From Blastomussa wellsi (taxonomy: Eukaryota; Cnidaria; Anthozoa; Scleractinia; Plerogyridae), in the NCBI GenBank assembly GCA_947652115.1, contig OX393565.1, forward strand, positions 24,799,003 through 24,863,002: a DNA stretch of 64,000 bases. The letters are read 5' to 3'. This document shows, piece after piece, positions 35,668-61,900 of this stretch; position 1 is the first letter of the stretch, and every line of letters begins with the position of its first letter. Under the pieces are notes generated by a model that searched no databases, was not told the DNA's origin, and was given only the letters and a program-made list of their open reading frames with translations. Both the position numbers and the translations under genes were made by a program.

Positions 35668-38600
35668 GTATCTTTATAGATCTCTTATTTTTCAACGATC
35701 GAATATTAAAAGCTCATTTTTATGTGCGTGAAATATTGTTGCCATAAATGTCGATTGTTTCCCGTGGCAGAATTTTAACAGTCATCGCTGAGCAAGATAC
35801 TTCAAGGTTTCTTTGGATTCATACCAACAAAACATAGATGGAGAACAATCTTTGTTACAGCGTTTTTGATATATCAGTGTGTTTTGTAAAGATCGTTTTC
35901 ACATGCATGCAGTACCGCAACAACATTCAGCGAATGAAGTCAAGAAAAAGCGATAATTTATTTTCTTACAGTAAATGGATAAAAATTCATTTCTCCTGGC
36001 ATTAGGACTTTGTGTTATTCCAATTAACTGCTGATATTAGTCGAAATGTTTTGCACAAATTTGCAGAGCCCAGTACGAGGTCTCCATACATATGTACCTC
36101 TTTGTCATCATTCTCATTTCCACCAATGACTTACTTTCATTTGGTTATCTGCGTCACTGATTAAATTTTCTGAATGAACAAACATTTACAAACACGCTTT
36201 TCCTACTTCTTTCGTCAAATGAAGTTTTCGAGGGGTTGGTTTCGTTCGGAACTAAAGTAAGAGACACGTCTAATCGTGTGAAAGTATAAGTTTCCTGCAT
36301 TCCTTTCGTTTTAATTATGACGGCTTAAAATGGTGAAAATAAAATACCAACAAGCTGTCAGAAACTGGGATCGGAAATTTCCTATCAAATTTTCAACTAG
36401 TCGAACTGACAAAGCCTTCATGTAGAACTTTAAATATCTAACTTGGTCAGTGAACTGAGCAGAGCACTCAGTTGAAACAGCCAGCATTTCTTGAAACGCC
36501 ATCTTAACCAATGTAATATTTTATCCTCGGCATGTTCATTTTTGTACCATATGTATATTAGTAACTTAATTTTGTATTAACAATTAATGTAACTATGTAC
36601 TTAAAATCAACTAATGTAAGTAAGTAATTATTGTCAGTATTGTATATGTTTGTTGTGTTTTCAATAAAAATAAAAATAAAAAAAAGAGAATAAAAAATCA
36701 GTTTACTGAGAACCTAAAAAAAAAAAGGTTACGTTTCCCACAAGCACGCTATTTATGTATTTTCATTTTTTAAATGATTTTTTTTTCATTTTCATTGTTA
36801 TCAACAATTAGAAACTTGTCAAGCCAACCAGTTTCGCTGTGGAAATGGAAAGTGCGTCTTTGTACACTGGCGTTGCAATGGCTATAATAACTGTGGTGAT
36901 AATTCCGACGAGCAATGCAGTAAGTTGTTTTGTTTATAAGATTGCCCTCTAGTTTAATTGTACGATTCTTACTGGTGTGGCCCTGACGTTGCCCAATTTA
37001 TAATTTCACATTGGAGTCAAACATTCAATACACTTGCCATTTAGACGAGCTGATCACCAAATTATGTTGCTCTCTTTCGCTTTAACAGTTTTAGCTAGTG
37101 TGGCCTGAATAGACCATAGCTTATAGGTCTTATAGGTTAAAAACTTGCACCAAACTAAAAGACGTTAACCTACAAGTGTCTTTAAAATGTATAATTTGGG
37201 TTTATCAACTGGGTTGATAATGTCAATTGGCCACCGCAAAGAGATTCAAGAGCTGACGTTTCGAGCGTTAGCCCTTCGTCGGAGCGAATCGCTCCGACGA
37301 AGAAACCTGGGGTAAATCATCAAATCATACAAAATAAATCTACCACAACAAAATGCTGCTGAATAATTGGAATATAAATAAAAAATGTTCGTATTGTTAA
37401 CTCGTTTCTCTCCTTTTTCATGTGCTTGATTGAACGAAACAGCCGCAGGTTAGTGTCTGTGGTATTAATTTGATGTAGCCAGCAATACGTAACAACTTTT
37501 TATAGCAACAGAGTAAAAACCTTCTCGCAGATATTTTCCGATGCCCAACGCTCAGAGGCAAATAACTGTACTGGGAGACACTGACAAATCACGATATTTT
37601 TCGATAACAAAGCTCGATAATGTTTAAGTTTTAAGTTCTGAGTTTGTTTTGGTATCACGAACAGTGGAATGGTTTTCAATTCTGATTGGCTGGCATCTTC
37701 GCTTTCTTGTTTCTGATTGGTCCACGCGGCGGGCTAAAATATATTTTATCCCACAAAATACGCCACAATGCCCGAAGAAATGATTATAATACTATTTGCC
37801 ATAATATTAGTCAGTTGATAATGCGCGTAAGCAGACCATCACTTCTAGGTAGATATTTAAAGATCAGGTGATTGATCGTGATTGACTCTCAAGCAAAAAA
37901 AGGGATAAAAAGTGCATCGAGTGTTAAAATTACTTCCTTCGCATTCTCATCAGGGAATTGCGAAGATTACGAGTTTTCCTGTACAAATGGAAAATGTATT
38001 AAGGAGTGGTTTCGCTGTTGGAAGGGCGATCAGTGCGGTGATAATTCAGACGAACAGCAGTGTTGTAAGTGCATGTAATTGTTTGATTCCTTTCAGCCTT
38101 TAGTCATAGTGTTTCAGTGTATCATGTAATGCCTACAGTCACTCCGATTTCAGGTTCGTCGATCACTTGCCTTGCAAAGGACTTTAGAATTTTTAATTTG
38201 AGCGAGTTGCTTTTCTTGTGCCCTGGGTTGGTTCTATATTTTGTGAGCTGATTTTCTTTGTTTATGATATGATTTTCTTTTATTCCTTTAAAGTTGTGTT
38301 GATTTTGTTTTGATTTTGTTGAAGGCGTGAGTTTATCTTAAGGCTACACAATACCGATAGGGGTGTCCTTCAGAAAAATATTCCTACCTATGTAATGGGG
38401 CATGTTTTCAAGGAAACTACCACAAACTATATATCCATGGAAATGTCTTGAATTGTAGAATTCGAAAAAAAATATCAAAGGCAAACGCTGATGTAAAAGC
38501 ACTGCATTGTGTTAACTCAGCAAACATCAATCTCTCAAAGTGTGTCAGGGATTTACTGATTCCGATTAGTTACCTTTTATAAACCCGCAAAGTTACAGCA

Positions 38601-41600
38601 TCGTTCGCAACTGCCAAATTAAAGAAAGACACAATTTTGTTCCTCAATACTTAATGAATGTTCTGGCCCGTCAATTCTACATACCGAGTTTTCGCCCTTC
38701 AAAGATTTGTAAACATGTCTCGTCTTTACTGAAATAGCCGTCAACAGAATGTGCCGCCAGCCAATCAGATGACGTTCACAGCGAGCAAAATGATATTTTC
38801 GCGGGAATTCTAGGACAATATTATTGTGTGGCAGTCACGTTCTTCTCGTTCACTTGTGTTTAACGCACGATACTGTATTCAAAGACATGTTTATTCGGTT
38901 TAGGTTCGACGGTGATGTCTTCGAATTGATTTGCGAGAACTGACTTTGCAAAATAAAAGCGGTAAGCGGTCTCCCAGGGGAGCCGACACGCTAAGAGGAC
39001 TATGACACATTATAGTTTTATTACTCTTGGCGGCGAGAGGCGGGCTTCTTTAGCGTTCTTTAATCCTTCAACAGATTTTCTCTTTAAATAGAACACTTTA
39101 CAGATTTTCCAGGCACCATTAAATCAAAAAAATCGTTATATTCAAATTTCGGAGATCGATCGAGAGGGTATGTGCCCAGGGGGGTACTCAAAATAATACA
39201 TGACGGGGGGGTCCGACGGAGCCTCGTACTGCAAACCCAAAAAAATACCCGACCCTGAAATTTTAGACCTAAAAAAATACATGGCACAAAATTTCATACC
39301 CAAAAAAATACACGACTTTAAGACCTCAATTTGGATTTATTCAATCAAACAGAACCTTCTAATGCACAATTTTGCACCTATAAGCTAATGAAATTGATAT
39401 GTCCGTTAGTGTCTCTTCATCCTCCCTTCTGCTCCACATTTACAGATAGGTCCTCATTGTGACACTATCAGCATACATTATCATTGCATTGTAGTCATGA
39501 CGCAAAAATAAAAATTTACATTTTCAAACAGGAACTGTAACGAGTGTTGAAAAATATACCACAATACACTTTTGACAAAATTATAAAGTATTCGAAATGT
39601 TTCCGTTAATTTCTCTCGGTAATCTACATTTAAGAGACTAGTGTACTGTATAAATGATGACTCTCCGAAACCATCCATGGTGCGGAAACGTCATAATATT
39701 GTACTCTTAAACAAAATTGAAATTTACATTTTAAAACAGGAACTGTAACGAGCGTTAAAAATAAACTACAATACTCTTTTGACAAAAAATCTAGAGTACA
39801 AAGTTCTCGAAATGTTTTCCTTAATCTCTCTCGGTAATCTACAGTGGAGGTCACATTCAAGACGAGCAGAATCCGAGCTAAGGAAATTGAGCGCGCTCTA
39901 AAGCAAAAGGGATTACACGTGCAAGTAATGATAAACCGTGGTGATGCACAGCTCCCGGGGAGCAGCTCAAGTGACACGAAAGACTTTGATGGACATCATT
40001 TAAATGAGTCATAGAGAAAAGAGAAATAAACAAGATTGCAAATTACATTGTATTGTCTTCTTTATACTATTAACAAAATATTTCGAATGAATATTTTTCT
40101 GATCTACTGATCGCGACAAAATTTATAACCCAAAAAAATACACAATTTTTTTCAAGACCCCAAACAAATACGTGACAGATTTTTCGACCCAAAAAAATAC
40201 CGAGCATGTAAATTTTAACCCCAAAAAAATACGTCGGACCCCCCCGTCATGAATATTTTGAGTACCCCCCCTGGGGGTATGTGTCGAGTTGAGAAGTAAT
40301 TTTTGACACCCGGCAACAACATAAGTTTGATCCCCAGGTCAGAACGAATTCCGTTTCTGTAAAGCGACTATATACACGCTTTCAACGCCCCGTTCCCAAG
40401 GAGAAATTAAGGTTTAAAATTCCGACGTTCTTGCAGGTTCAAATTTTAAATACAATTTTTCAATAAATATAATTAATTAATAATTAATTTATTATTCTTT
40501 TCCTCTTTATCCACATAAAACTTTAATGGGAAATCAGCCTGGCGTATGTATCTTCTACTTATATATTAATTGATTGTATTGTTAGTTGGCTGATTTTTTG
40601 ACTGACTGACTAATTGACCGACTGAATGAATAACTGACTTACTGATTGACTGACTGACTGACTGACTGATTGACTGACTGACTGACTGACTGATTGACTG
40701 ACTGACTGACTGATTGACTGACTGACTGACTGACTGATTATGACTGACAGCCAAGGCCTTACAAATGAAAGTGTTTGCACAAGTTGAAATTCCTTAAAAT
40801 GTCACTGATATTGTCTCATTTTGCTAAGATATGTTTTGAGATCTTTAAAATACCACCAAAAATCGCCGTTTTCTTTCTATCACGAGTCAATTGTGACATT
40901 CCGTCACTTTAGCTGGGGAGGGGACAAGAATCTTCTGACCGTTGAATTGCCTGTGGACGTAATAATTTATTCCTAATTCCAATCCTATTTCTCCACTGTC
41001 GCAGGAAAAAGTTTTTTATTTCGTGCATGCTGATGATCGGCTGCGTGCGCGGTAGAGTTTAGAAAATTTATTTTTACTGCATTATAATTGAGAGAAAAAA
41101 AACCAGCTAGTGCTACCGTTGTTTATTAATCTTTTAATCGTTTGTCTTTTTTATGTGGTTTATTGGGACAATCAGCAAGTAAGTGCTTAACGTTGTTTTT
41201 TTTACTTATACTCGCGTGCTGGCATTGAACGCAGTGCTGTGGGTCGCCTCTTATCTTTCATTGTAGTATTTGTGAATGTTTAGCCCTACCCTACCCAATC
41301 CCCGTAGCTCCCGATTTTGTATAACGGACCATGCGTGCTGCACGATGTAGTTACTGGCTGGGCTAACTCCGTAGTTAAATCCGAATCATCCCTGGTTAAA
41401 TCCGTGAATACACTACAATCATGCTTTCATCTCAACCTTTTGAACAAAACTAACTCAAGAAGGCAATCTAGGCAATCAGAACTTATTTATCTTCAGTCGT
41501 TCAAACTTGTAGTTGGATACTTATTTTACACCTTTTCATTATTTAGCCAATGCTAAAATATGTTAATTTGGATAAATATAGGTAGCTGTAAATACCGTGT

Positions 41601-44600
41601 ACATTGCAATATAATGGAAATTTTATTCATGATACCAAACTGACATGAATATTAAAAACACATCACGAAAAGGGAAGACGATATTAACCCTATAACATTC
41701 CATATGAAATTAACCCGAAACAATACGAAATACCGGTATCTATTAAAGGCCAGCTACAGGGGAGAATAAGGAGATGTTTATAACCTCACTTCTCACCTGA
41801 CCTCCTCATTTCACCTCACCTCACCTCACCTCACATCATCACACCTCACTACCCACCTCACCTCACCTAACCTCACCTTACCTTACCTTACCTCGTCTCA
41901 CCTCACCTCATCTCACCTTACCTCACCTCAACCCACCCCAAGTCACCTCACCTCACCCCACCACACCTCACTACCCACCTCACCTCACCTCACCTTACCT
42001 CACCTCAACCCACCCACATCACCTCACCTCACCTCACCTAATCACACCTCACTACCCACCTCACCTCACCTCACCACACCTCACCTCACCTTAACTTACC
42101 TTACCTCACCTCACCTTACCTCACCTCAACCCACCCAACGTCACTTCACCTCACCTCACCTCATCTCACCTCACCTCACCTCACCACACCTCACTACCCA
42201 CCTCACTTCGCCTCACCTTGCCTTATCTCACCTCACGTCACCTCACCTTACGTCACCTCAACCCAACCCACGTCACCTCACCACACCTCACCTCATCACA
42301 CCTCACTACCCACCTAACCTCACCTCACCTCACCACATCTCACCTTACCACACCTCACCTCACCACACCTCACCTTACCTCATCTCACCTTACCTCATCT
42401 CACCTTACCTCACCTCACCTTACCTCACCATACCTCACCTCGCCACACCTCACCTCACCACACCTCACCTCACCTCACCTCACCTCACTTCACCTCACCT
42501 CACCTCATCTCACCTCACCTCACCTCACCTCATCTCACCTCACCTCACCTTACCTCACTTCACCACCAACCTCACCTTACCACACCTCAGCTCGCCTCTC
42601 CTCACATCACCTCACCACACCTCATCTCACCTCACCTCACCTCATCTCACCTCACCTCACCTCACCTCATCTCACCTCACCTCACCTTACCTAACTTCAC
42701 CACCAACCTCACCTCAACTCACCTTACCACACCTCAGCTCGCCTCACCTCACATCACCTCACCTCACCTCACCTCATCTTACCTCACCTCACCTCACCTT
42801 ACCTCACCTCACCTCACCCCAATTAACCTCACCTCACCTCAAGACCCTGAGAGATGATAAAAAATCGTTAAACTCACGGCAGAACCGTGAGAGCTGGCAG
42901 GTCTACACCTCACCTCACTTCATCTCACCTTACCTGACCTCACTTCACCTTACCTCACCTCACCTCACCCTACCTCACCTCACCTCACCTTACCTTATCT
43001 CGCCTCACCACACCTCACCTCACCTCACCTCACCTCATCTCACCTCACCTCACCTCACCTCACCTCACCTCACCTCACCTCACCTTACCTCACCTCACCT
43101 CACCTCATCTCACCTCACCTCACCTTACCTCACTTCACCACCAACCTCACCTCAACTCACCTTACCACACCTCAGCTCGCCTCACCTCACATCACCTCAC
43201 CTCACCTCACCTCACCTCACCTCATCTTACCTCACCTCATCTTACCTCACCTCACCTCACCACACCTCTCATCATCTCACCTCACCTCACCTCACCCCAA
43301 TTAACCTCACCTCACCTCAAGACCCTGAGAGATGATAAAAAATCGTTAAACTCACGGCAGAACTGTGAGAGCTGGCAGGTCTGCACCTCACCTCACTTCA
43401 TCTCACCTTACCTGACCTCACTTCACCTTACCTCACCTCACCTCACCCTACCTCACCTCACCTCACCTTACCTTATCTCGCCTCACCTCACCTCACCTCA
43501 CCTCACCTTACCTTGCCTTACCTCACCTCACCTCACCTTACCTCACCTTACCTCACCTCACCTCACCTCACCTTACCTCACCTCTCACCTCACCTCACCT
43601 CACCTCACCTTACCTCACCTCACCTCACCTTACCTCACCTCTCACCTCACCTCACCTCACCACACCTCACCACACCTTACCTTACCTTATTTTACATTAT
43701 CTTACCTTACCTTTTTTTTCTTTTTTCTTAATGTGGCGGCGTCACCAAATACACCAGACTGTAAGAAATTACCTTATATAATTTCTAGTTTAAAATATTT
43801 TAGCTATTCCCTGGTAAAATAAACTAAACTCACAATTTAGATTAATCCCTTGATACAACTAACTATAGATTATTCCTTTAGCTTATATACGATGTGAGAA
43901 ATATTTCAGAAACAGAATGCCTATTGATGTTAATATAATAACAACAAGACAGCCATTGACCCCGAGTATAAACCTTGCTGGCACGAGTATTGCCGATACA
44001 TCATATTGTGAATGTCACGCTATAACGCAATTTTTGTTAAACAGTCTGAGTTACCTTTATGTTCAAATGACTTAAGATAAAAACAGAGTTGATCAAAAAC
44101 TTGTAAGAACAAAGTGACACGAGGCACTAAGCCAAAGGCTTTTATTTTTACCGGATTAATGTTAATGCCCTGCCATTTTTAACGTTTTAGTTATTTCAGG
44201 CTGCTGGTACTATATTTATATTTACTTTCCTTTGTAAGTTAATTGATTTAAATCTCTTGGGTACAATAAATGTTGCTGTTATAAATAAACGTTTAATAAT
44301 TATTATTATTTTATTTTCACTTGCTTTTTCTAATCTCTACGTTTGGCTGAACGGCCCTGATGTCATATATCTAGGCAGTAAGTAAACATTTTGAAATTCA
44401 TTCATTCATAGAATACTCAGCAGTATTTTCCAATCACAGGACTTGTATTACCGGGAGACCTTTCTCAAACAGTACGTGTCGCGGTCTACTACGGGTTGGG
44501 TGGCGGGAAACCTGCGCGAGTGAATTTTAATTACTTTTGATTTGATAAGAAATTAAAGTGGCGGTAGTTTTATAAACCAATCACAAAGCGCAGGACTGTA

Positions 44601-47394
44601 AAACCAATACAAATGATAATTACCTTGACACTCAAGTGAAAACCCCTCGATGAAGTTAAATAACTAACTTAATATTTTTAATTTCAAAAATATTGTAGCC
44701 TTTTTCATATTTTATTGTCTCGAAAAGTAAATGAGTAAACAAGCAAAGTATTATAACGGCATTTAAAAACTCACAAATGGTTGTGGTTTAATTCCTATTA
44801 TTAAATTATCCTTCTCTTTTTATCTTTGTTATGGCCTGGTCTCCTCCTTATTCAGAATGTGAGTATAATACCTTTTATGACTTAGTGTAGAAAGTTGGAG
44901 TTATGAGGAAACTTCGTTAGTCAAAATTACTAATATAGAGCTGGTGAGATATTTGTTTCATTTGCCTTGCTGATTTTGCTTTCTTCTCTCTCTGTTTTTA
45001 TGGGATTTGGCGTTCATATCATATGGGACAATCAGGCGGTAAGTAAATAATTCATTAGGATTTCGAGCACACAACGTAATAGGCCATTTCCGAGTTCTCT
45101 TTTGCCTCAGCGTCAAAACGAGTCTAAGTGCGAAAATGAGTTTTACCTCCATCTTCATTCTCATGTAAAACAAGCTTATCTCCGCATGAATAGCTTCGCA
45201 CTTAGACTCGTTTTGAAAGTGAGGGAAAAGGGAACTCGGAAATGGCCTAAGGAACACCGTCCAGAACAGGAACACCGTCCAGAACACCAGAACACGTACC
45301 GGAACACCCCGGAACACGGAACACCGGAACGCCGGAACAACCCGGAACACCAGAAATACCAATAAATTTCTAAAAAAAAAAAAATGAAATTCTGCTGTTC
45401 CAGGGTGTTCTTGTGTTTCATGTTCCTGGGTGTTCCGGTGTTCCGGGGTTCCGGTATTCCTGGTTCTAGTGCATTCCATTAATTATTGTATAACAAATTA
45501 TTATTTTTTCTCCTTTTCATCACTCGACGACAACAAATCATACAAACCAGCTGGTAAGTAATTATCTATTATTCCTACCGTATTGTAAGGTTTATAATAT
45601 TAATTTCGTTGGCATAAGGGCTTAAGCCGCATCAGGGCTCGCATCCATCACTTACCCACTCACACATTCATTCATTCTTTCTCTCTCTCTCTCTCTCTCC
45701 CTCTCTCCGAGTTCTCTTCCTTTCAATCATTCATTCACTAAGTTAATCAATTAATCATTCATTCATTCATTAATAGATTTTCGATAACCATCCAGTGGCA
45801 AACTTCAGCATACCCCAAATGCAATTAATTAATTAACCATTCAAAAAGCCAAATTAATGTACTATTTAGTGCATCAATTAGGTTTTTTGACGTTTAGCTT
45901 TCCAAATTAATTAGTGATTTTCTTTCTATCTCTTCATGATGGCGACCTGAAACTAACCAGGCTGTAAGTAACTTGCTATTTTTGCATTCTTTTTGAATTA
46001 ATACACATTGCGAGAAAGAAAAGCTAATCTTACTGCGGGTGCTTAATAAGACAGTTAGCTCAACGGACAGATGCTCGGCTGAAATAGTAATAAATTATTG
46101 TGAGGTTATAAATGTCTTGTTCGTTATCCGCTTATCCTATGTCTTGCTAGCTCTTACAAAAATAACTGGCTATACATTGATTTATTTAGTTGATCTCGGT
46201 TGGTGCGACTGTTTGGATTGAGATAATGGAAAGCACCCATTGTAACTATCCGCAACTACACCTGTTTAATAATGGAAATAAAATGACTTGTCGGGGATAT
46301 NNNNNNNNNNNNNNNNNNNNNNNNNNNNNNNNNNNNNNNNNNNNNNNNNNNNNNNNNNNNNNNNNNNNNNNNNNNNNNNNNNNNNNNNNNNNNNNNNNNN
46401 NNNNNNNNNNNNNNNNNNNNNNNNNNNNNNNNNNNNNNNNNNNNNNNNNNNNNNNNNNNNNNNNNNNNNNNNNNNNNNNNNNNNNNNNNNNNNNNNNNNN
46501 TCTTCCTTTCAATCATTCATTCACTAAGTTAATCAATTAATCATTCATTCATTCATTAATAGATTTTCGATAACCATCCAGTGGCAAACTTCAGCATATC
46601 CCAAATGCAATTAATTAATTAACCATTCAAAAAGCCAAATTAATGTCCTATTTAGTGCATCAATTAGGTTTTTTGACGTTTAGCTTTCCAAATTAATTAG
46701 TGATTTTCTTTCTATCTCTTCATGATGGCGACCTGAAACTAACCAGGCTGTAAGTAACTTGCTATTTTTGCATTCTTTTTGAATTAATACACATTGCGAG
46801 AAAGAAAAGCTAATCTTACTGCGGGTGCTTAATAAGACAGTTAGCTCAACGGACAGATGCTCGGCTGAAATAGTAATAAATTATTGTGAGGTTATAAATG
46901 TCTTGTTCGTTATCCGCTTATCCTATGTCTTGCTAGCTCTTACAAAAATAACTGGCTATACATTGATTTATTTAGTTGATCTCGGTTGGTGCGACTGTTT
47001 GGATTGAGATAATGGAAAGCACCCATTGTAACTATCCGCAACTACACCTGTTTAATAATGGAAATAAAATGACTTGTCGGGGATATTGTTTATTTGCACC
47101 ATTGTAGTGTCATTTGCGGCGAAGAGGCGCAAATAAACAATATTCTCTATGTCTTTTTGTTCCCTTATTCAAACAATTTGAAGAAAAAAAACGGATCGTT
47201 TGCAGTTTTCGGCTCTCCACTCTATACTGCCGAGCCAGTGTTTTTAGATTTCTTCACTATGAAGAACTTGCAATTGGTGGTTAATTAAAAACAGTGTTTT
47301 AGTCGTTTTAACGTGGTCGACAGGCCGGCTAGACTGGAGAGAAAAGATGTGTTACTGATTTATACGAATTCGCAGAGACGGGTTCGTTACTTAT

Positions 47395-47462
<68 letters not shown>

Positions 47463-50400
47463 GAAACTGTGTGCTTTTTCGGTCATTTTAACACTGTCTT
47501 TTATTATTTTTCATTTCCTTGGATGGTTTTCTTCTGAATTTAGCTTGTGAGTATTTTAGACTATTTTTTTTTCACATTCATGTTTCTTATCCCCCGAAAT
47601 TATAACATAATAAACACAAAAGTTACTTTAATACTTAGGGTTATAAGAGTGGCACCGAGGGCTGAAAGAAGCTGAAAATGAATCATTTAAATTTGGCGTT
47701 GTTTTATTAATATAAATTCACTAATTTACCTTTATTACATTTTCATTTTTATCATGTGTGGATAAACTGAATGCAATCATCAAGGCTGTAAGTTGCCTGC
47801 TAAGTTTGCTTTGTTTCATTTTGGTTTTTATGTCTTTTTGTTTGTTTGTTTGCTTGATTGATTGCTTTTGGAAAATTATCTTATGCCATGCACGCAAAGT
47901 AATTTGACTGATTGAATTTTTAAGATTTTCTATGGCGATAATGATATCTATGTGTACTGCCAGTGATAATTATTTGTCTTTATTACATGCATCATGAAAT
48001 CTATTGTGCAACCGCCCCAAACTTTTACTAATTCTTTAATTTTTTGTCCTTTTTTTCTCTTGCTTGCTCCTGTCAACGGATATAAATCAGGGAGTAAGTA
48101 GTCCTATTTAAAATACCCAAATCAACCAGTCGGTCATGTCATTCATGTGGTGCGTGATCTGAGTCTCTATAGGGATGATCACCAATCAGTCATGTTGTCT
48201 AAGTTTCTATAGTTCCTTAGTACAACCTAGTTAGATTAAGCACATAAAATCAAAAATCAAAAGAATTCTCCAAGAACGGAGGCAAAATAATTAGGGCCAT
48301 TATTTCCTCTCTACTTTGCTAATATGTCCTTTTTCCTTTTATTCCTGTCCTCTGTGAATTCCTGCTGGACAATATAGACCGTAAGTATATGATAATATGA
48401 TAAGTAATAACATAATAATACGAATATAATATCCCAGTAAATATTAACTACTGACTGACTGACTGACTTGGTTGGTTGGTTGGGTTGGTTGGGTTGGTTT
48501 AGCAATCTATCGAATGCTTGATCGATCGATTGATGCTCTAATAAGTTTCCTTTCAGTCTATTATGTCCCTGCAGAAAGTTCTAAAATGAAACAAAGGCTT
48601 TCCCTCGGGGGAGGTTGCTTAATGCAGCATTTGCAGTAATACAGACTGAAAGTTCTTTTATTTTGTTGATTGTACATGAAAAAAATATAAGCATACGTGC
48701 TAACGTTCTTTATGTTACTTTGAATTTCTTTGCTAGGCACACCAAGCTGTAAGTATTTTTTCTTATCTGCTTATGAAACTATTACATGATTATAATAATA
48801 GAGTGTGTTCGCGTGACGTCACGGCGGCCATTTTGGAGGAGTGCAACAAAGAAATGGTAGCCATGTTGGAGGAGTGAAGGAGTCTTTTGGGAATTAAACT
48901 CTATTTTCATGCAAATTCTTCCTTTTGTTTCAGTAAAACAATATAGATGCTAGTCACGTGAGCGAAAACACTCTATATAATAATTTAAGTAATAAATTGG
49001 GGTGTCTAGAGGAAAGAGAAGCTATTAAAATGGCGAACAAGACATTCGTCGGCATTTTCGTCCCCAGAGGCCGCGCTCCCTTTAGTCATCACCAAGAATC
49101 GCGACCTCTTGCCGCCTCCAAAACTGGGCGTCCGCGAATCACGGACTCATTTTCAAATCTGACAAATCTGATTGACTGAAAACTACAGAACGAGTTCTCT
49201 GTTTATGCTCATAATTTGGGGACGGCCAGAGACCTCGATTCTTGGTGCTGACAAAAAGCTAGGATCCAGGCCTCTGGGGACGAGAATGATACGGCGGTAA
49301 ATGATGTCAAAACTGTAGTTCAGGTTTTGCTTTGTAGGATTATATAAGACTTTCTAGGGTTTGCTAACAGATCACTACACCACATTAAAAATTTCACACA
49401 TTTTTAGTTTTTGCGTTTTGTAAAAAGTATCACAAGAAAGAGTGATTCTTGAAAAATTATTTGGGGAAAAATGTGTTCCCATTGCCATGGGTACAGGGGT
49501 GCCGTCGGAGGTCCGAAACCCTGACCCTGTTTAGGAGCAAGGAAAACGTTGTTTTATATTATAGTGCTAATATCTAGTCCTAAAAATGATCTAATGTTTA
49601 CTGATGACTTGCTAAATATATACTGATGAACATTTCTGATTTTGGACATGCTTAAAACTCAACGAAAGTCATACCCTGTCTAGGACGACTCCTTAAAACC
49701 CATACCCTGTTTAGGCCAGCTGTTTAGGGCAGACTCGCTTGAATTCCATAGCCCGTTCTGAGGACTGAGAGGTCAAAAACCATACCCTACCCAGCGGCAC
49801 GTCCCCGTATAGCCTATATAACTGAGTACCCCCCCCCCCCCCCTGAGAATGCGACCTAATATTCCTATTCGCGTGGAGCCTCCCGTTATACTCCGCTACT
49901 GTGATTATTCCTCCCCCCACCCCCACCCACCCCTTGGAGGGGGGCGTGGTATAGGTTCGTCTGGAATTTCTCGAAATAATGCTGAAACGATGATAGTGTT
50001 TAACTTGATTGTGAATACAAAAGCAAAATAGACACACTAATTCAATAAATGTAAAGTAAATATTGGAAGCATTATACAAAGACATAAATACCTAATACTA
50101 ACAAAGGTTTCTATTTTTCTTTTGGTTTAATTTTCTGTGCTGGAAAATCAGCTGGTAAGTAAAACATTTACTTTATTTAACGAATCGTGAAAAGAAGCCT
50201 AAGCCATGGGCATTTGAGAATACGAGGGAAATGTAGAAAACACGAACCACAGGAGAGTGTTTTCTACATTTCTCGGGTATAATACATGGCTTCTAAAGGC
50301 TTCTTTATTTGCTTTATGATATAGATTTTATACGCCGCGAGTAAAAGCAACAAAATGACAATGAAAAAACTACATGTACCACTATTTTGTATTCTGTACA

Positions 50401-53400
50401 TACAGCTGTTAATATACATTTCAAAATGGCAAAGGTGCATAAATGGCGTCCAAGTTTGAATAACAATATTTGATACATCCTTAGCCTCGTGTGGATGCTT
50501 ATAGACAAAGGATTTTATACGTGAATTTGAGGCTAAGGATGTATCAATTATTGTTATTCAAATTCTGGCGCCATTTATGCAAAGAGTCTAATGTCTGGTC
50601 GTTTGCACTTTTATTCGCTGCTAAGCACCCCCCATCCCTCCCCTTCTCCCCACACACACCCCAGCGAAGCCCCCTATTATTATATGTTACACTGAAGACC
50701 CCTACAAACTACAATCAAATGAAACTAAGAAAGGTTTTGTCCTCTTTTTTTCTGTATATTCGTTACCGGACAAATCAGAGCGTAAGTAAACAATTACTAG
50801 CTGTTTATTTTACAGGTGCTAAGTTTACTTCATACTAATTGTAAAGGGCAGTTTTGGTTACGTGCGATGAAGAGTTTCAAAATTTGTAAATAGTTTTTGA
50901 CAGATGAACAGATGATTCCAGTTCAGTCCTCTTCGAGAAAATAGTTCTTCGGGTTTTCACAGGTGTTTTCTAAGCTATTCTCTTGTCTTTGCATCGTAAA
51001 AAGTTTGCTTCTGAATTAACACTTCTTGTGACTTTCAAGAGAACAAAACGTTCTTTTAAAAACTAAGAATGACATGTTCTCGCAAGCAGTTCTTAACATT
51101 GTTTTTTAAAATTCTTGTGACCAATAGATATCAATCCATAACAATCGTAGCCTCCCATACAGACGTCCTTTGGGCTTCGTCACGCGTTCCTTCCCCACGG
51201 GCGTCTGCTGAAGCGAAAGTCCACTTTCGTTCACAGGCCGTTTAAATCCAATTAAAGAAAACAATCGGTATCGAGTCACCGTATGACAGCTATCCTATCA
51301 CATGCTGTGAATCGTTTTCCAGAGACTGGAAAGTTACCTGTGATTGGTTCGTAGCCGTGAACGGAGGCGGACGTTCGATCCAGCAGACATCCGTGGGGAA
51401 GGAACGCGTGACGAAGTCCAAGGGAAGTCTGCGGCTATAAATATCATTCAATTTATTTTTATTTCAAACATCTTCATCAGTAATTCAATTCTGTGACTAA
51501 ACGAGATCGTTTTTCATCCAATTTCATCGATTTTAATAGATTGTCATTATCGTTAACAGCAATTGATAAAAGGAGTCTTACTTGTCGCGATCAATTCGGC
51601 ATCGATTGGCCAATATAAATTGATATCAATTAACTAATAATTATCAATTGACATCAAGTGACACACAAGTTGAAACGTTTTTCTTTTCTTTGCTTCAAAA
51701 TGTGTTCGTCTTCTTTGTTTCCGATCACGCTTGCGGATACCCAGAGGGTAAGTAGACAAATAATTTCTACTTCCTTTGATCAGTATAGAGTTAAATATGA
51801 TCAGGTTACCGTAAACGCCTCTGTGGTAATTGCATAGCGGGTCGCCGGTAAATTGTAAAGGCACGCGGGTGAATTTTCGCGGGATGTGGGTGAAAAAGTA
51901 ATAATTACAAAGCGTCTGTCAACTCTACTCTTCTGCTACCGAAAGCAGCTGCTTCGACGTGATCGTGTCAAATGGAAGTGGCAGGTATAAGCTAATATCT
52001 CAGGTAGTAAAGCAAATTTTAAATTGAAAGACCTACAACCGTTACCTGTCCGCGACGGTTTCTATTTTCTCCAAGCAGATAAATTCACTCACGGCCTTGT
52101 CCCCAATGGCCACCAGCCTATAAGACCTCAACGTGGCCCTTGGCAAGGTCTCGATTTGCCTCAACTTTCCAAGAAATAGATAAAAAACGTTTCGCTTAAA
52201 AAAATAATGTTTGGCTTATTTACAGCAAATTTACTGGTCGACGTTTGCTGCATCTTTGGAGGGCTTGTTGTCAAAGTTGCACGTCGTTCCCCGCGCGCGG
52301 GCAAATTTTTGTTCTAAAAATATCGTTCCAGTTTTACGAATCTACTGGGTCTTGTTGCATTATAAGACGGAGAATTCTAAATGAAAGACTTTTGACCAGA
52401 AGTACGTTCTCAACTTCAGACAATTTTGGAAAGAAATAGTTTTTAAAAAGTGTAAATGAACCTTGGTCCCTTCTCTAAAATGCTAACCTCACTGTTTACT
52501 TCTATCTTTTCCTGTAACTTGTCGCGCATGGACCAATAAGGTGTGGGTGAGTATTTTGTTTTTGAACATAAGTAAATGCATAGCTTGCAAAATTTCTACT
52601 CGAATTCTATTTCAATTTCGGCGTATCAAGGTGTTTATATCAAGAGAATCTCTGTAGAATTTTAAATAAAACAAATATCATATATTGCTTAACTTTACTG
52701 CTTTCTTGCTTTACGTGAACGTTATAAAATTCGCAATAGGGAGCTTAAGCAAACCACGACGGCAACGTCAACGAGAACGTCGCTAAACAAAAGATTTAAT
52801 GAGCAGTACAATAGCTCGGCACGTGCGTTATAATTCTATGTACATTTCTTTGCCGTCCTCTGCAAAACAACAACGTGAAATGACCAATTTCTCAGTACTT
52901 TGGAGAACGTGAACCTCGCAGCTAAATTTTCGGTTTTCTGTTTGAAAATAAACGCCGTCCTTATATTTTCTACAAGAACTATGTTTGAAAGCGATAAATG
53001 CACCAAATACATCAAGACAATTGCGAAATTCGTGCATAAAATATTAATTCATTTTTAAGCAGGCGTCGTCCTAGCCGTCGCCGTCGTCATTGCTTAAGGT
53101 CCCTACTATCAGGGTGGAGCGCCATATACCAAGTCAATAGCAAGTCCCGAAGTACATCACAAAGAACAACAACAATGGGGCCTAGCCATTAAATTAGCAA
53201 TAGCACAATAGACTTCACACAGTAGAACGACACAATAATGCATCACCCCAATATCAGTAGTGCCAACAAGAATGAAACATACATTAAAATTGGGTACGAT
53301 TTTTTTATGCAAATGCAGGCATAACACTACTGGAACAAAGACCTGAAATAAATTTAAGGCTCTGAACGGGATTCGAACCCACGGCCTCTGCGTTACCGTT

Positions 53401-56400
53401 GCAGTGCTCTACCGGTAACGCAGAGGCCGTGGGTTCTCGTTCAGAGCCTGAAATTTATTTCAGGTCTTTGTTCCAGTAGTGTTATGGCTGCATTCGCATA
53501 AAAAACCATACCTACTTAATTGCTACTGTTGGACATTCATTAATTTGTTGTTCACATTATTTGCATGATGTCGTCATTTGACTATACAACTATCAAAATA
53601 ACCTTAGTTTTCAATTGGTCTTTATTGTGCTAATTAGGGCGATTATTGTTTAAAACCCACTGGGATTACACAATTTAAATAATAAAGGAAAAACGAAATG
53701 AATTCTGGTTGTTGTATTCAGATGACGACATCGTACAAATGAACTACTCGGATCCTCGCTGTTGCGAGATAGAAGTGTCAGATGCGGGGATGACCTAGTA
53801 GTGTAAAATTTGATCTTCGTAAAACAGTGCTCAATACATAGAAGCAGAGCGAAGTATATGTTGTGGGAGAAAAATCAAATAAACTACTAGGTCATCCCCG
53901 CATCTGACACTTCTATCTCGCAACAGCGAGGATCCGAGTAGCTCATTTGTACGATGTCGTCATCTGAATACAACAACCAGAATTCATTTCGTTTTTCCTT
54001 TATTATTTAAATATATATATTGCTTGTACTGGTTCTTCTTTTTTATCTTTTCCATCTGCTGCACGTATTGGACAATTAAGATCGTAAGTATCGTTTACCT
54101 ATATTTTATTTTACTTATTTAACCGACCTTTCTTTATTAAAATTGAAATTAATTTATTTAATACCGACAACGCTTACTTTAAGTTTCCATATTAAGCATT
54201 TGAAATGTTACACAATCGTGCACTGATACTCTTTTTCTTTTAATTCCTTCTTGTCTACCTTGCCTGGAAAAATCAGACAGTAAGTATAGTTATGCTTTCA
54301 TTTATAGAGTGCTAATGTTGTTGTTGCACTTGCCGTCTGTGGTGATAACTATATTCACTCTGTCGATCACCTCAGAAATCGAGAGCGAATAAATTAATTA
54401 TTGTAGCAGAACCCTAACACTTTTTCAATTTTATTATTCAACAAATTGTCACCTTGCCCATATATGGCCATGAAGCGATTGCCGAAATCTCGCAAAGCGT
54501 TACATAACGGCAACTTTTCTAGCCGTAAAATGCGCTTCGCTGACAATTTGTTGAATAATAAAACAATCATCCTGCTCAATCTTGCGGAATATCGTCTGAT
54601 TTTAGCCAACTCGACCTGCGGCCTCGTCGGCTAAGTATCAGGCGATATTCCGCGCCATTTCGTAGGATAATTGCTTAATATCTCTACACATGAACTAGCA
54701 CTGTATTACACGCGCGGAACTGAGTTGTCATTTGAAACTTTCCGCTGTGTGCGCACACTCATCTTTTCATTCAAGAATTTTGACGCTTTAAACTCGTGAT
54801 CATGAGTAGCTTAGCTAATCAGATTACAGCATTTGAATAAGTATACTACTCTTTACTAATTTAAAGTAATCTTTTTTATGCTTTTCCGGGGTTTTGCCAA
54901 TTCAATGTGGAAAATCAGCACGTAAGTTGATATTATTATTTTTATTGTTTTGATGATGTTGTTGGTGTTTGTAAATATACCTATTTTCCTTACAGTGAAT
55001 TTTTGCCTGTTGAGCTAGATCACTAGTGACAGACACGTTTAATTAGCAAGGGAAATAGAATTTTTGTTACTGTTTTGGCTAATCTTCTCCTACAGACTAA
55101 TTAAAGGCCACCTGAAAGTTACTCATGTCAATTTTGTTGCATACCATGTGTTTTATCATTATGAAGAAACGTTTTGATCATTTTCCTTTATTGAAATTAA
55201 ACTAACTAAGCTTTCAATTACTTTTTCTCCTTTTGCTGAACAACCAGCCGGTAAGAAAATTTATCATTTCTTTGTTTTTCGTTTATGTTTTGTTTTTTTA
55301 TCCTTTTTGTTATATGTGTTTTTTATAGATCGAGTAGTAAATATTCTTTATGAAGAAAAGTGTAAATACAATTTATGCGCGTGGTAAACCTTCGTTTCCA
55401 TAGAATTACTTTACTTTTATGCATGGCATTGAAAATCCAGCTATTTCGAGAAAAGTTGGTGAAATAAGCGCACGCAACAACCCCGGACTGGTATTGTAGT
55501 AGAGTTAAGTCCATGGCTCCTTAAATTTGATTCAGCGTTAAATTGAAATCTGAGAAAACGGCACGAGACACATTGAAGGATGTTTGCAAGTGTTAACAAA
55601 AACAGGCTTGACATATAGAGTGAGAGGAACGTACCTTGTTTCCCAGATTACCTTTCGGGATTTTCGCATGCATGCACTTTTCCAACAACCTTTCTTGAAC
55701 GAGCTTTATGTTGTTTACGCATGCGCCCCCGGTGGGACTCCCATATGTAAGAGATCGGATTCCCTTTTTTCCCTTAGCGGTATAAATTAGGGGTTTTGGT
55801 CTCACTTAGGCAGTTCAGACCAGAAAATCAACATTTTTAGCCATACAGATTCGTTAAGGACCGTTAAAAAATAGACTACCGTGAAGAAATAGAAACTTCT
55901 ACATACTGTTCAATCTGCTATGAAAAGTGGCATATTAATTCTAAGTAATTGAGCCAGGGTTCGATTTCAGAAGAGAGTCGTCGTCCTTTCAGTATGGGCA
56001 TTCCCGGGGGGCTATTACGGTTTCTTTTTAATTAATAATCAGTACCTTTTCTGTGACTGTGTGAAAGCAATCAAACTTTTATAACGGTTTTTATTTTATT
56101 GATCGATTTCTGTAATGTTTTATAATATTTCCTATCGCGTTTCAATACAGCTTTACAAGCAGCCAAAAACTAAATTACGTTACTCAGTCATTTGTCTTGG
56201 TTTAATTTAATTTTCATGCCATCTCAAATCCCTGAATGATGCAGCTGGTAAGTAAATTGTTACGAACTTGATTTATGTATAAAAATGTAGAGATAAAGGA
56301 TAAAGGTGGGAAAAGTCTCAGGTGCACCCAACGAGTCTGTTCCACAATTTATCTGTTCTCCAGCGCAAATGTTGCTGGCTGGAAAATTGTGGTAAAATGG

Positions 56401-58920
56401 TTCAGTATATGTTTTCCCATACTACTTTTGCGCCGGCTGATTGAAACTCGGTAGGGCGACTGAATAAACTGCTCGACGAAGGCTTGAATCTCGTTGAGAA
56501 GAGTGGATTTCAACGGTCTTCAAGGCCATTTCCTCGCGTTTGTTGTTTGCTCTAATTGCTGGCTGGAAAAAATTATGGTTCATGTGCTAGCAAAAAGGAA
56601 CAGATAAATTTTTCCCACCAACTCTCATTAACTCTTGTCAATCGTTGTTTTAGGGGTGCTCCTGAAGTCTGTATTCGCGCCTAATGGCCCATCCAGCGGA
56701 GCTTATCCCTGTTTTCCTGCAGGTTTCATGAAGCGACTAGGAGTATTTTTACACCCCCTGGCTTGGATGGGATGCCAGTTTATTGCAGGCTTAACCCCAG
56801 CATTAAAATCCCCAGTACACATTTATACCCCTTGGTACAGACAGGCAGTTTAAGAGAAAAGCATCTTCCGAAAAGCAGCCAACGGCCAACGCGTGGCCCC
56901 GGTCATGGCCCGGTGATGTGGAGGCCAGCGGTTTTCTAACCATTTGACCGTCACACCGCCCTATTAATTTGAACCAACTAAACCTTTTGTTACGGCAGCG
57001 AAGTACTAAGGCTACGTTTACACGGCACAGAATCATAACCGATCCGGACCTGCACGGCTTCTGTTTACATGGAACCATTTGGAACCGATCCGGTTGTATA
57101 CGCGGGATCGTACTGGAACCGGTCTGGTGCGGATCCGAGCCCAGACCTACAAATCAACAGGTCATGTTTTGGATCCGTTTGTATCCGTTCTGTATCGGTT
57201 CCAAAACGATTTAAATATTTTCTGACCAGATCAATTTGGATCCGTTTGGAACCGGTCCCGTGTAAACATAGCCTAAAATATTAGGTTGCGTTTACACGGA
57301 ACCGGGCCGCAACCATTCCGAACCGAACAGGACCGAATCGGCTTCTGCTTACATGTTTCCATTCGGGACAGATCCGGGTGTTTACAAGGGATCATTAATA
57401 TGGAATAGATTTGGTACGGAAAAACTGGACCAGCAAATCAGCAGCTCCAGTTCTGAATCCGTTTGGATTCGTTCCGGAAAGGTTGCAGATAGGTCCCCTA
57501 CAAAGGATCCATCCGGTCCTAAAATTAATCGGACGGGATCAATTTGGATCCGTTATTTTTGAACCGGTCCAGTGTAAACACAGCCTTAGAAATGGAATTC
57601 GTTGTTCAATATTTAATTGGCCAGTACTGAGATTTTGCCCCGTGAGTAGCAATTAGCGTAGTAACCCGAAAACATGCACTTCTGGTAATCCACGGTCATA
57701 AATCTAATTAGTTCCTTTTCTTGATCTCTCTCTTTTTTGGTTTCCAGATACGAATGAAGGTAAAGAGCACTCCATCTGTTAATTTAAACAACCTTCAAGT
57801 TCGTTTTAATATTATTTTCTTTTGTCTTTAGTTTTTAAACATAATCAGAATATCATGATACGAAAGATAAGTTTTTCAGTTCAGTTTGTGACAGAACTAG
57901 AGTCTGCTAATAAGTGCTATAATTTGGATTGATTGACTACCTTACTTGTATCAAAATTCGTGTCGGACTCATTTTCGCTCGGCTTTAAAGTGCCCATGAA
58001 ATGAAAAAACGAGCTATTGAAAAACAGCTTATTTGAAATGCCTTTAAAAATGAAGGAGAATGGCGTTTTCCTTTTTGTGATATCCCTTCTCATTCCAGAG
58101 ATATTCAAGATTTTCGAATTATGCTCATTAAGTACTGATGACGTCATATGGTGTGATAATGCATATAGGTGTAAGAATACAAAATATAGCATATCTCTGC
58201 ATGTAATGATGCAATGAAATTGAAACTTGGTGAGCATGTTTAAGTCTAAGAAATACATCAGATGGTGCATACTTTGGTGTTGCTATGGCGACATATATGG
58301 TCCAAGTATCCTGTATTTGATCTTGAGCAAACATCGCCCACTTCCTTAAGGTTAATTGGGAGAGCGAGTGCAATATGGGCATTGTGCACGCTTTAAATTA
58401 GATCAGTCATTTTCCCGAAACAGTCACAAACGAGTAATATTTGATTTAAAGAGGAAAGAGACTGGAACCAAGATTGTTGCCATAGCAACATCAAAATACA
58501 GAGATATGCCCTATTTTGTGTTTTTACACCCATATTATCACACCTTATGACGTCATCAGTACCTAATTTGCATAATACAAAAATCTTGAATATCTCTTTT
58601 CATCATTTTTTAAGGCCTTTCATATAAGCTTATTTTTCAATATAATTTGGTTTTATCAACTGGGTTGATAATGTCAATTGGCCACCGTAAAGAGATTCAA
58701 GTGCTGACGTTTCGAGCGTTAGCCCTTCGTCGGAGCGAATCAAGGAATTGTGCGTCGTGTGTCTTTATATACAGAAAGATGGAGCTTCGCTATTGGCTGG
58801 TGCCTGGTAACGTGAAAACTTGGGAATAAATTAGTTGAATGAAAAGCGTTCGTTGATACCGTGAGGATTAAGAGTGCCGATTATCAACCCAGTTGATAAA
58901 ACCAAATTATATTGTTATAC

Positions 58921-58965
<45 letters not shown>

Positions 58966-61900
58966 CTACTTATTTTTCAATAGCTCGTTTTTTCAATTCA
59001 TAGGCACTTTAAATTCACGCAATTTAATTTCGCGCACATATGTCAATTGTGTATGCATGCGTTAATAAATCAACTGATTTGCATAACTAACAAAGAGTGC
59101 TGATATTACACGACAAAGCTTTTCGCACTGATTATAATTGGCGCATTACTAAAATTCTCGCACTCATCGCTGGGAGAATTTTAATACAAGTAAGGTATTT
59201 AATTGTAAAACACATAATTTTATTTGTATTCATGCCATGTCAATCATGAAATATTCTTTAAAATATAAACAATATATATTCCCAAACAATTAACTGTATT
59301 ATCTCCGAACAAGAACTAATACTGCGGTTTATAATTTGGCTGGTCCTGTGAGCGGTCAAGATGAAGCAAATCGCATGCTGTGATTGGCTACCGAGCGGTC
59401 AAGATGGAGCCATCTCGTTTCTTTCATCTCGTTCATTTGCTTTGTTTGGCGTCCTTCGGGTCATATAATAAATCCTTTACTTCGACTCGGTTCATAAACA
59501 CGCAAAAGAAGAACAAGGCCAATTTCCAGCCATCTTGACCGAACAAGCTTGGCCAATAACCCATAATTATATAGACCCTTTGCATAAATGACGGCCACAT
59601 TTGAATAACAATACTTGATAGTATTGTTCAGCTTCAAATACATGTAAAAATCCTTTGTCTATAAACATCCACACGAGGCTAAGGGTGTATCAAGTATTGT
59701 TATTCAAATCTGGGCACCATTTATGCAAAGGTCAATAGTTGTGCGTATCGCACTAGTCAGTAACAAAGGACTGTCAATAGTCCTTGTATAAAAGTCTATA
59801 GGCAGCTATAAGTCTGTAGATAAAAAGGGGTGCCTAAATTATTGAAAAGAAAAGTAATTTTTGAGAATATAGACATGAGAGACATTCGTCAATTTAGACA
59901 TGTGTTATTTTACAAAGTGGTCATCTGATACTCATTTTGTTTGTTGCTTTTTTTTTCCATGTTTTTTGACGGATTAGTGGGTGAGTACTGTTTTAATTAA
60001 TGAAACGTTTCCAGGACTCGCACAAACATTGTAGGCGGAGTTGCGCAGTACAGACTGGAAATCATGTTTTAAAGTAACATAGTTCAAAATGTATTTGTTG
60101 TATAACAAGAATTAAGCAAATCGGCTGAATTCGAAATGAGCTCGAGTATTGTATGTTCAGCACATTCACTAACTCCCTGCGCGTGATAGTATATAATACC
60201 TTATTCCAAAATGATTACCATCTTAATATTCTTTTGTTAGACCTTCTTGCCTCGTTTCTAAGCTCGAAAATCAAAAGAATACTTGATCTTGAACGAGGCA
60301 ACAAGGGCCAATTTGATTGAGACAAAAGATAAAAACAGTTTGCTTACCAAGATTAGGTCATGGAAGCCTTAATTAATATTTCTATGGTGTTATTAAAATA
60401 AAAATTGTAAAAGGTTGAAAACTTTGTTTACTCTTGCTTCGTTTCTTCTTTTTTCTCCATGTGGCATCCTCCATGAATAATCAGATTGTAAGTAATCAAG
60501 AAGCCTCGTCATTTCTTTTTCATGTTTTTTGAATAAATTATCCAGTGCTAGCACAAAAAATAATATGAAATAAGTAAAAATAATAAAAATAACATTGCAA
60601 CCTTTTTATCTACATGTAACCTTCAATATTTGACCATGAAACTCCTCAGTTTAAAAGAAACCTTTGAATGCAGGGAACCATGCACACAACGCAAAGGAAT
60701 AGTCAGCAGTTCTTGTTGCCGGATCTCTTTGCAGAAATGCTCGTACCAGACGTCACTGTAACGTGTAGAAAAAAACAATTTAAACTGCATGGCTGGCACT
60801 AAGGCAAAGGGCACTTTTAATGGGCCAATATTTCGACTAGCACGTCTAGTCTTCTCCAGGGCCGTTTTTTTCGTTTCATCTTCAGTACTTGTACTGAAGT
60901 TAGAGACCTATCAGACCTATTTTATTCTTAGTATTAAATTTATATAAATAGTTGAACAGTAAGTTTCAGCCCTAAAGGCACTATTTTGTTTTGCCTATTG
61001 TCTTCTTTACAAAAAAGACAATGTGCACGGAATGGGGTTACACGAAAAATCTTACCAACAACTTTTTCAATAGACCTTTTTACCGATACGGCGGCCATTT
61101 TGAATTCTGTTGTTTCAAGTGGCTATTATGGGATGCAAATGCATATTAATTTGCCCCCTGGGCATCCCATAATAGCTACTTGAAACAATATAGTTCAAAA
61201 TGGCCGCCGTATCGGTAAAAGGTCTGTTGCACTCCACTTTTGCTCGCTGCTTAGCCTTTCGAAAGTCGCAGTCCTCGCTGACTTATCGCTAATGATGTGA
61301 CGTAATTTGTAAGGTTGCATGGCTTGGTCGTCCTGGACTAACTGTAGTAAAACTTGTGGAGCAGGTCGCCAGCAGCGTGAAAGGATCGGTAAGAAACTGA
61401 ACGCTCCCTTACAATTCTTGTTATTTTATTAATTTTTCAATTTTGACTGTTTTCACGGTGGCTACAAACCTTTGCATTTCTATTTCTGTTGTTCTAACAG
61501 GGATTGGACAGTCTATATGCTGAAAATTTTAACCCAAAAAAACCCACAATTATAATTTCACGCAAATATAAACTTCCCCTTATATAAAGGTGAGCGACAC
61601 CTGTTTGCTGCGAAGCCTTAGCGTAATAGCAGCACTATTTGTGATTGTTCGTATGGGACCTGGGCGCTTTATATTCGAGCACATAACTCGACCGAAACTC
61701 GATCATATTTTTTTCGGTGGCGATAATTTTGAGTAGATGCAGTACATATATACGGAGGTGTACGGGGGATAATTTACTCAATGTTTTGGACTTTTCCCCA
61801 GAATTCAACTGTTCGCGAACTCAGGAATCAAGGAGTTGCCAACTTTCTCCTTGTCCAAGTAAGTGAATTCATTTAATACACAGATTGAAATAATTGTTGG

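Follow-up and report, generated by a model that had tools for sequence, protein, structure and literature searches.

Among the described systems closest to the locus considered here is the 4-bp exon of human MPC1, termed an 'exon island', which is spliced constitutively and whose definition as an exon requires no more than a fragment that starts 67 bp upstream and ends with the 6-bp donor (PMC9929638). Its pyrimidine region is positioned farther upstream than usual, 'probably to overcome spatial limitations' (PMC9929638). The present locus lies in a stretch of 64,000 nucleotides from the scleractinian coral Blastomussa wellsi (contig OX393565.1, positions 24,799,003 to 24,863,002 of the forward strand; hereafter the window), in which a predicted series of micro-exons, most of them a single codon in length, separates an exon for an LDLa domain from an exon for a TSP1-like domain in a likely receptor tyrosine kinase gene. 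Like the MPC1 exon, the units of this array are tiny exons between long introns with a displaced pyrimidine tract and a consensus donor, and the conserved stretch between tract and AG in MPC1 can be likened to that of the array units. Unlike the array, MPC1 has one 4-nt exon, which was demonstrated with minigenes, whereas here 21-24 exons are predicted in series (PMC9929638).

Serial tiny exons are found in the micro-exon genes of Schistosoma, which encode secreted parasite proteins and contain 10-20 tiny exons, mostly of 15 bp, with a range of 6-81 bp (3-81 bp in the abstract; PMC10526429). The array resembles these genes in its many tiny exons, mostly multiples of three, between long introns, and both are hard for automatic annotation; it differs in that 21 of its 24 exons are 3 nt long and in the host gene, a likely receptor kinase (PMC10526429). 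Single exons of 3 nt or 1 nt are spliced in animals and plants, including those of bee elavl2 (PMC8553928), fly hth (PMC7392893) and plant APC11 and VPS55 (PMC4674806, PMC8831610; see also PMC8042270), and the 1-nt exon of VPS55 has a conserved GTRAGT, a sequence also present at most array units. In those cases the exons appear to be isolated, whereas the array is a series of 21. The meA and meB mini-exons of PTPRD are likewise very short exons in a receptor ectodomain, but they are two in number, lie in Ig domains and are alternatively included (PMC12598525). The neural microexons of the eMIC/SRRM type share with the array a long AG exclusion zone and a long tract; their acceptors have UGC close by and in fly their donors are weak, whereas the array has strong donors and a slight enrichment of UGC (PMC8797185). 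The preliminary description of this stretch knew of no such array, and in the open-licence PMC papers searched, isolated exons of 1-4 nt were met but no run of single-codon exons was found described. A search of the genome with the profile PF15230, which we take to be the eMIC model, gave no match, but it gave none in 14 controls either.

The plus strand of the window carries 24 matches to the motif AG-NNN-GTRAGW, 23 of which fall at 41174-60483, and the minus strand carries 5. Two of these 23 were removed before counting: the match at 44939, which is without a pyrimidine tract (35% pyrimidine upstream), and that at 46747. The latter lies in a 585-bp repeat (45716-46300 versus 46502-47086) that is 99.7% identical and flanks a gap of 200 N, and for this reason it is very likely the exon at 45961 assembled twice; the repeated pair itself has the appearance of unmerged contig ends or an allelic duplicate. 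Twenty-one distinct acceptor-NNN-donor units remain, all on the plus strand, between the end of the LDLa exon at 38064 and the start of the TSP1-like exon at 61314, so that the array of the preliminary description stands while its count of 22 included the duplicate, as did a first set of motif column counts (22 sites). The preliminary description had also placed the array between phase-1 domain exons, and LDLa exon 2 and TSP1-like exon a are indeed both phase 1-1. In every unit an acceptor and a donor frame no more than 30 nt, in frame, as expected of a micro-exon, defined here as a spliced exon of at most 30 nt. As a sequence, the array is real and not random: signals for single-codon micro-exons recur along the coding strand of a gene with several domains. 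With the patterns tried, no other motif cluster of its kind was seen in the genome.

Training a position-weight scan on the 3-nt units brought out two 6-nt exons, at 40538 and 52541. The phase of the series is also kept by a 12-nt exon (48737) and by a weaker 12-nt candidate (57748); the preliminary list had missed all four or left them unnamed. The whole series would comprise 21 exons of 3 nt, a pair of 6 nt and a single one of 12 nt, 24 in all, separated by introns of 177 nt to 3.7 kb. On the plus strand, it begins with the 6-nt exon CCTGGC (40538..40543; acceptor GGGAAATC followed by AG, donor GTATGT), identified by the trained scan, and continues through 3-nt exons, each identified by the motif and the trained scan: CAA (41176..41178), ACT (43758..43760), GCA (44375..44377), AAT (44856..44858), GCG (45036..45038), CTG (45551..45553), GCT (45961..45963, the unit copied at 46747), CTT (47544..47546), a second GCT (47785..47787), GGA (48091..48093) and ACC (48378..48380). 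The 12-nt exon GCACACCAAGCT, whose tract is nearer the AG, follows at 48737..48748, and then CTG (50152..50154), AGC (50779..50781), AGG (51745..51747), the 6-nt exon GTGTGG (52541..52546, from the trained scan), ATC (54081..54083), ACA (54277..54279), CAC (54919..54921), CCG (55248..55250), which has a tract nearer the AG, and CTG (56245..56247). The possible 12-nt exon ATACGAATGAAG (57748..57759) is in frame and fits by phase, with a weak donor, GTAAAG. The last two units are TGG (59978..59980) and ATT (60485..60487), which would complete a Cys codon with the GT of the next exon. A CTCAC tandem array of about 378 units (41792-43687) lies inside the intron between the CAA and ACT exons.

Chance expectation, put at well under one in the preliminary description, is indeed low. 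A first-order Markov null (200 runs) yielded a mean of 0.6 matches and a maximum of 3, or 0.13 and 1 with the tract filter described below. Genome-wide, AGNNNGTRAGT occurs 24,852 times in 367.8 Mb, a density that predicts 0.79 matches for a 23-kb stretch, in which 19 distinct ones are observed (P ~4e-20). The loose motif is not commoner in the genome than its reversed control (24,852 versus 27,501), and it is therefore the clustering at the array that stands out. The sequence AGGGGGTAAGTTTCTAAAGAAACTG appears twice among the minus-strand matches of the window (211, 58965), and among the genome places listed AGGGGGTAAGT recurs often, on C1 at successive steps of about 59 bp; AGGGGGTAAGTTTCTAAAGAAACTG and AGGGGGTAAGT represent a repeat by which the motif count for the whole genome is inflated. 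For a stricter motif, AAYCAGNNNGTRAGTA, the 368-Mb genome contains 63 matches (53 for the reversed control), of which 9, counting the duplicate, are in the array, all on its strand. Of the 54 outside, 25 are one identical 16-mer, which is repeat-like, and among the genome matches listed there is no comparable cluster, the nearest being four copies of the 16-mer within about 97 kb on C12.

Spacing and strand were controlled by counting acceptor-donor pairs at spacings of 0-45, unfiltered or with a tract filter requiring at least 65% pyrimidine at -48..-22. Unfiltered pairs at spacing 3 made up 23 of 62 on the plus strand of the array, compared with 3 of 293 on the minus strand of the same stretch, 1 of 69 on the plus strand at 1-38064 and 5 of 402 on the whole minus strand of the window; the many minus-strand pairs of the array stretch (27 at spacing 0) are ascribed to the CTCAC satellite read backwards. 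After filtering, the plus strand of the array retained 34 pairs, with 21 at spacing 3 (duplicate counted) and 13 at all other spacings together; 55248 and 44939 are the units that failed the filter. A comparable density on the minus strand or in unrelated sequence, which the preliminary description had named as a telling check, was not found: filtered pairs numbered 8 on the plus strand at 1-38064 and 9 on the whole minus strand of the window, with none at spacing 3 in either. In the 294-kb neighborhood, part of which reads N, filtered pairs at spacing 3 (among spacings of 0-30) numbered 22 on the plus strand, 21 of them in the array with the duplicate counted, and none on the minus strand. 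One further displaced-tract site of 3 nt outside the array, 71,296 bases before the start of the window, reads ATC and then GTAAGTAACA; it may be a lone micro-exon belonging to some other gene, or a chance match. For the array, a chance origin is rejected by the Markov null, the genome density, the spacing and strand controls and the stricter genome-wide motif.

The donor is GTRAGT in 19 of the 21 3-nt units and GTAAGTA in 13, A is found at -6 in 19, and only 7 exons end in G, so that recognition seems to depend more on the intron than on the exon. Pyrimidine tracts end a median of 29 nt upstream of the 3-nt exons (range 10-49), with 20 of 21 units passing the displaced-tract filter; for the two 12-nt exons the distances are 15 and 3 nt. 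AG is nearly excluded from the 45 nt preceding the acceptors, with 3 occurrences in 21 x 45 nt when 1.99 per 45 nt are expected; longer exons with acceptors farther upstream are accordingly unlikely, 18 of 21 units having no AG in this interval. Of 23 short units, 12 have AATC between tract and AG (2.0 expected), 14 have TGG there (4.2 expected) and 14 have GGA (3.7 expected). TGC is slightly enriched, in 9 of 23 (4.8 expected; P 0.04). Scored by the trained model, 15 acceptors of the array reach at least 16, versus 3 on both strands in the rest of the 294 kb. Apart from splice signals, low-complexity matches and self-overlaps, no similarity was found between the flanks of units over 250 nt on each side, and a recent tandem duplication, mobile element or introner array was rejected because the intron bodies of copies are not alike over this distance.

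Concatenated in genomic order, with LDLa exon 2 fixing the phase, the 24 units read SWPNCKCAGSCWNRTPSSEQGVDHTPAVDC between the LDLa and TSP1 domains. The preliminary description had reported an open frame of 31 codons on full inclusion; the absence of a stop was confirmed, and 30 codons were counted with the duplicate at 46747 and the candidate at 57748 left out. F, I, L, M and Y are all absent from the linker SWPNCKCAGSCWNRTPSSEQGVDHTPAVDC, which contains four Cys and a glycosylation sequon, NRT. In the two remaining phases, residues of the F, I, L, M and Y set number 6 and 8, and one of these phases has a stop. Shuffled orders lack these residues in 3% of cases and lack both them and stops in 0.5%, a suggestive result only, since the residue set was chosen after the peptide had been seen. 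The letters of the exons are 58.6% GC (51/87), compared with 39% for the window and 42-53% for the flanking exons. These properties suggest, without going further, that concatenation in order and in phase gives one coherent extracellular peptide. Short exact matches to Robo-type proteins (EQGVDH) were rejected as signs of linker homology, such matches being expected because shared words chose the candidates.

We consider it highly probable, from the arrangement of the signals, that the units are spliced at all, and fairly probable that full inclusion is the main product; an ordered full inclusion giving one linker is, on balance, favored over combinatorial variants. The proposal draws on the layout shared with the human MPC1 exon. 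Splicing of the 24 tiny exons in their genomic order would yield a single cysteine-rich linker of about 30 residues between LDLa exon 2 and the TSP1-like exon, each short exon probably being recognized through its introns alone. The strong GTRAGT donor would serve as the U1 site, and the tract, moved about 29 nt upstream, would keep U2AF and U1 from colliding over three bases; in about half of the units an AATC element lies between tract and AG, and the units would be joined one after another. The series may have originated by repeated duplication of a frame-neutral AG-NNN-GTAAGT cassette, since all units share phase 1 and have lengths divisible by three, a uniformity that gain of introns at random would not produce. 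The divergence of the unit flanks would make such duplication old.

Several observations weigh against ordered full inclusion. Displaced tracts are also present in two of five ordinary exons of the gene (38 and 54 nt; weak tracts), the tracts of the other three being 2, 5 and 18 nt away, so that displacement is typical of the short exons and not exclusive to them. The acceptors are uneven: scores with each unit left out of training range from -2.6 to 22.1 and are below 8 for 7 of 21, that is, one third of the units match the remainder poorly, and the acceptor of TSP1-like exon a is weak. Within the peptide, freedom from stops is weak evidence alone, being found in 30% of shuffled orders, and at least four Cys occur in 10%, which is not unusual. 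The linker is absent from all 40 proteins returned by the homologue searches. In mammals, alternative splicing has been linked to purine-rich elements that lie between tract and AG (PMC4320613), a connection that would favor regulated skipping.

This last point leads to the alternative that the preliminary description had placed foremost, in which the micro-exons are alternatively included and yield many receptor linkers differing residue by residue. No unit disturbs the frame, AATC and TGG/GGA elements of regulatory appearance occupy the same interval between tract and AG as those mammalian elements, and the mini-exons in the receptor ectodomain of PTPRD tune ligand choice (PMC12598525). Set against this are the unusually clean appearance of the full in-order peptide, a layout like that of the constitutive MPC1 exon, and the consequences of skipping: omission of GCA (44375) or of CTG (50152) alone creates a stop, omission of any of the other 22 does not, and 35% of random half-subsets of units contain one. 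Such variation is less probable and is not the leading idea, and we doubt still more its strongest form, in which each of the 24 frame-neutral units would be an independent switch, the ectodomain linker would be edited residue by residue, and one gene would give a vast set of linkers.

Two further explanations were considered. Signals that have decayed or were never used, in a repeated element with a splice-like motif, would involve no splicing; the genome-wide count of the loose motif, not above its reversed control, and the single 16-mer that accounts for 25 of the 54 stricter matches outside the array both point in this direction, but the triplets are varied, the flanks are unrelated, and tract, AG exclusion and donor have all been kept, which makes this explanation very improbable. 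Recursive splicing, in which the units would be steps in the removal of a 23-kb intron and the three bases incidental, accounts for paired acceptors and donors along a long intron, with steps of 177-2579 nt when 57748 is included and up to 3.7 kb when it is not. Ratchet points, however, are juxtaposed AG and GT (PMC8605326), and on the plus strand of the array spacing 0 was found 0 times while spacing 3 dominates; the exon letters are, moreover, GC-rich and read in frame. We regard recursive splicing as very improbable.

The host gene likely encodes a receptor tyrosine kinase and not a secreted protein of the schistosome type. Upstream of the array are LDLa exon 1 (36812..36919, plus strand, phase 1-1) and LDLa exon 2 (37954..38064, plus strand), whose GTAAGT donor opens the array; both came from the exon scan and Pfam, and the second matches the Oculina patagonica model P0002 at 80%. 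Downstream, also on the plus strand, are TSP1-like exon a (61314..61388), TSP1-like exon b (61802..61858), placed by the joined reading, and an Ig (I-set) exon (63566..63838; Pfam) with 70% identity to Oculina P0006. Exon borders are in phase 1. In the joined reading, the LDLa (Ldl_recept_a) and Ig models exceed their Pfam cut-offs, and TSP1 models fall just below theirs (E 1e-5 to 4e-4; TSP1_CCN 25.6 versus 27, TSP_1 21.0 versus 21.6), hence the label 'TSP1-like'. Beyond the window lie kinase exons in the same orientation, mostly 60-95% identical to P0006 with one weak match at 37%; a stretch in between reads N and would hide the membrane span, a second Ig and the beginning of the kinase. Pfam lists Ig and kinase domains for P0006, and our own reading of its sequence suggests the architecture TSP1-Ig-Ig-membrane-kinase. 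Its best relatives of solved structure are an EGFR chain, followed by FGFR1, MuSK, FGFR2 and KIT, with most of the 60 listed being FGFR1 or FGFR2; NCBIfam gave only generic kinase matches, below cut-off.

P0006 (ACROYT_G042112), whose start is a Met within TSP1-like exon a, shows 74% identity over 133 residues, and the LDLa is carried by a separate Oculina model, P0002 (ACROYT_G042110), which after the LDLa seems to read through the donor. Their names, and their placement on sequences of 38,349,888 nt, suggest that the two are neighbors; by this comparison of gene models, the Oculina annotation appears split in two where the array lies. A paralogous receptor kinase locus in B. wellsi (G000:C23:4287236-4296910, minus strand) matches P0006 at 51% in the Ig and 65-73% in most kinase parts. 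It is probably of the SRCR-Ig-kinase type, of which Desmophyllum P0026 is an example; P0026 and P0025 both combine SRCR (PF00530) with Ig, P0026 also has a kinase, and their Pfam lists are without LDLa. Elsewhere in the window, Cys-rich frames at 23853-24635 resemble two FYVE-type zinc fingers of another gene.

The array points to coding sequence that annotation has missed, the Oculina orthologue being cut in two at this place. If a residue-by-residue set of linkers were in fact produced, it could serve, for example, self recognition or symbiont sensing. If the units are spliced, some 20-odd successive 3-nt exons must be found by the splicing machinery with almost no exonic information, and the gene would provide a natural test of exon definition by intron signals alone and of the addition of exons codon by codon.

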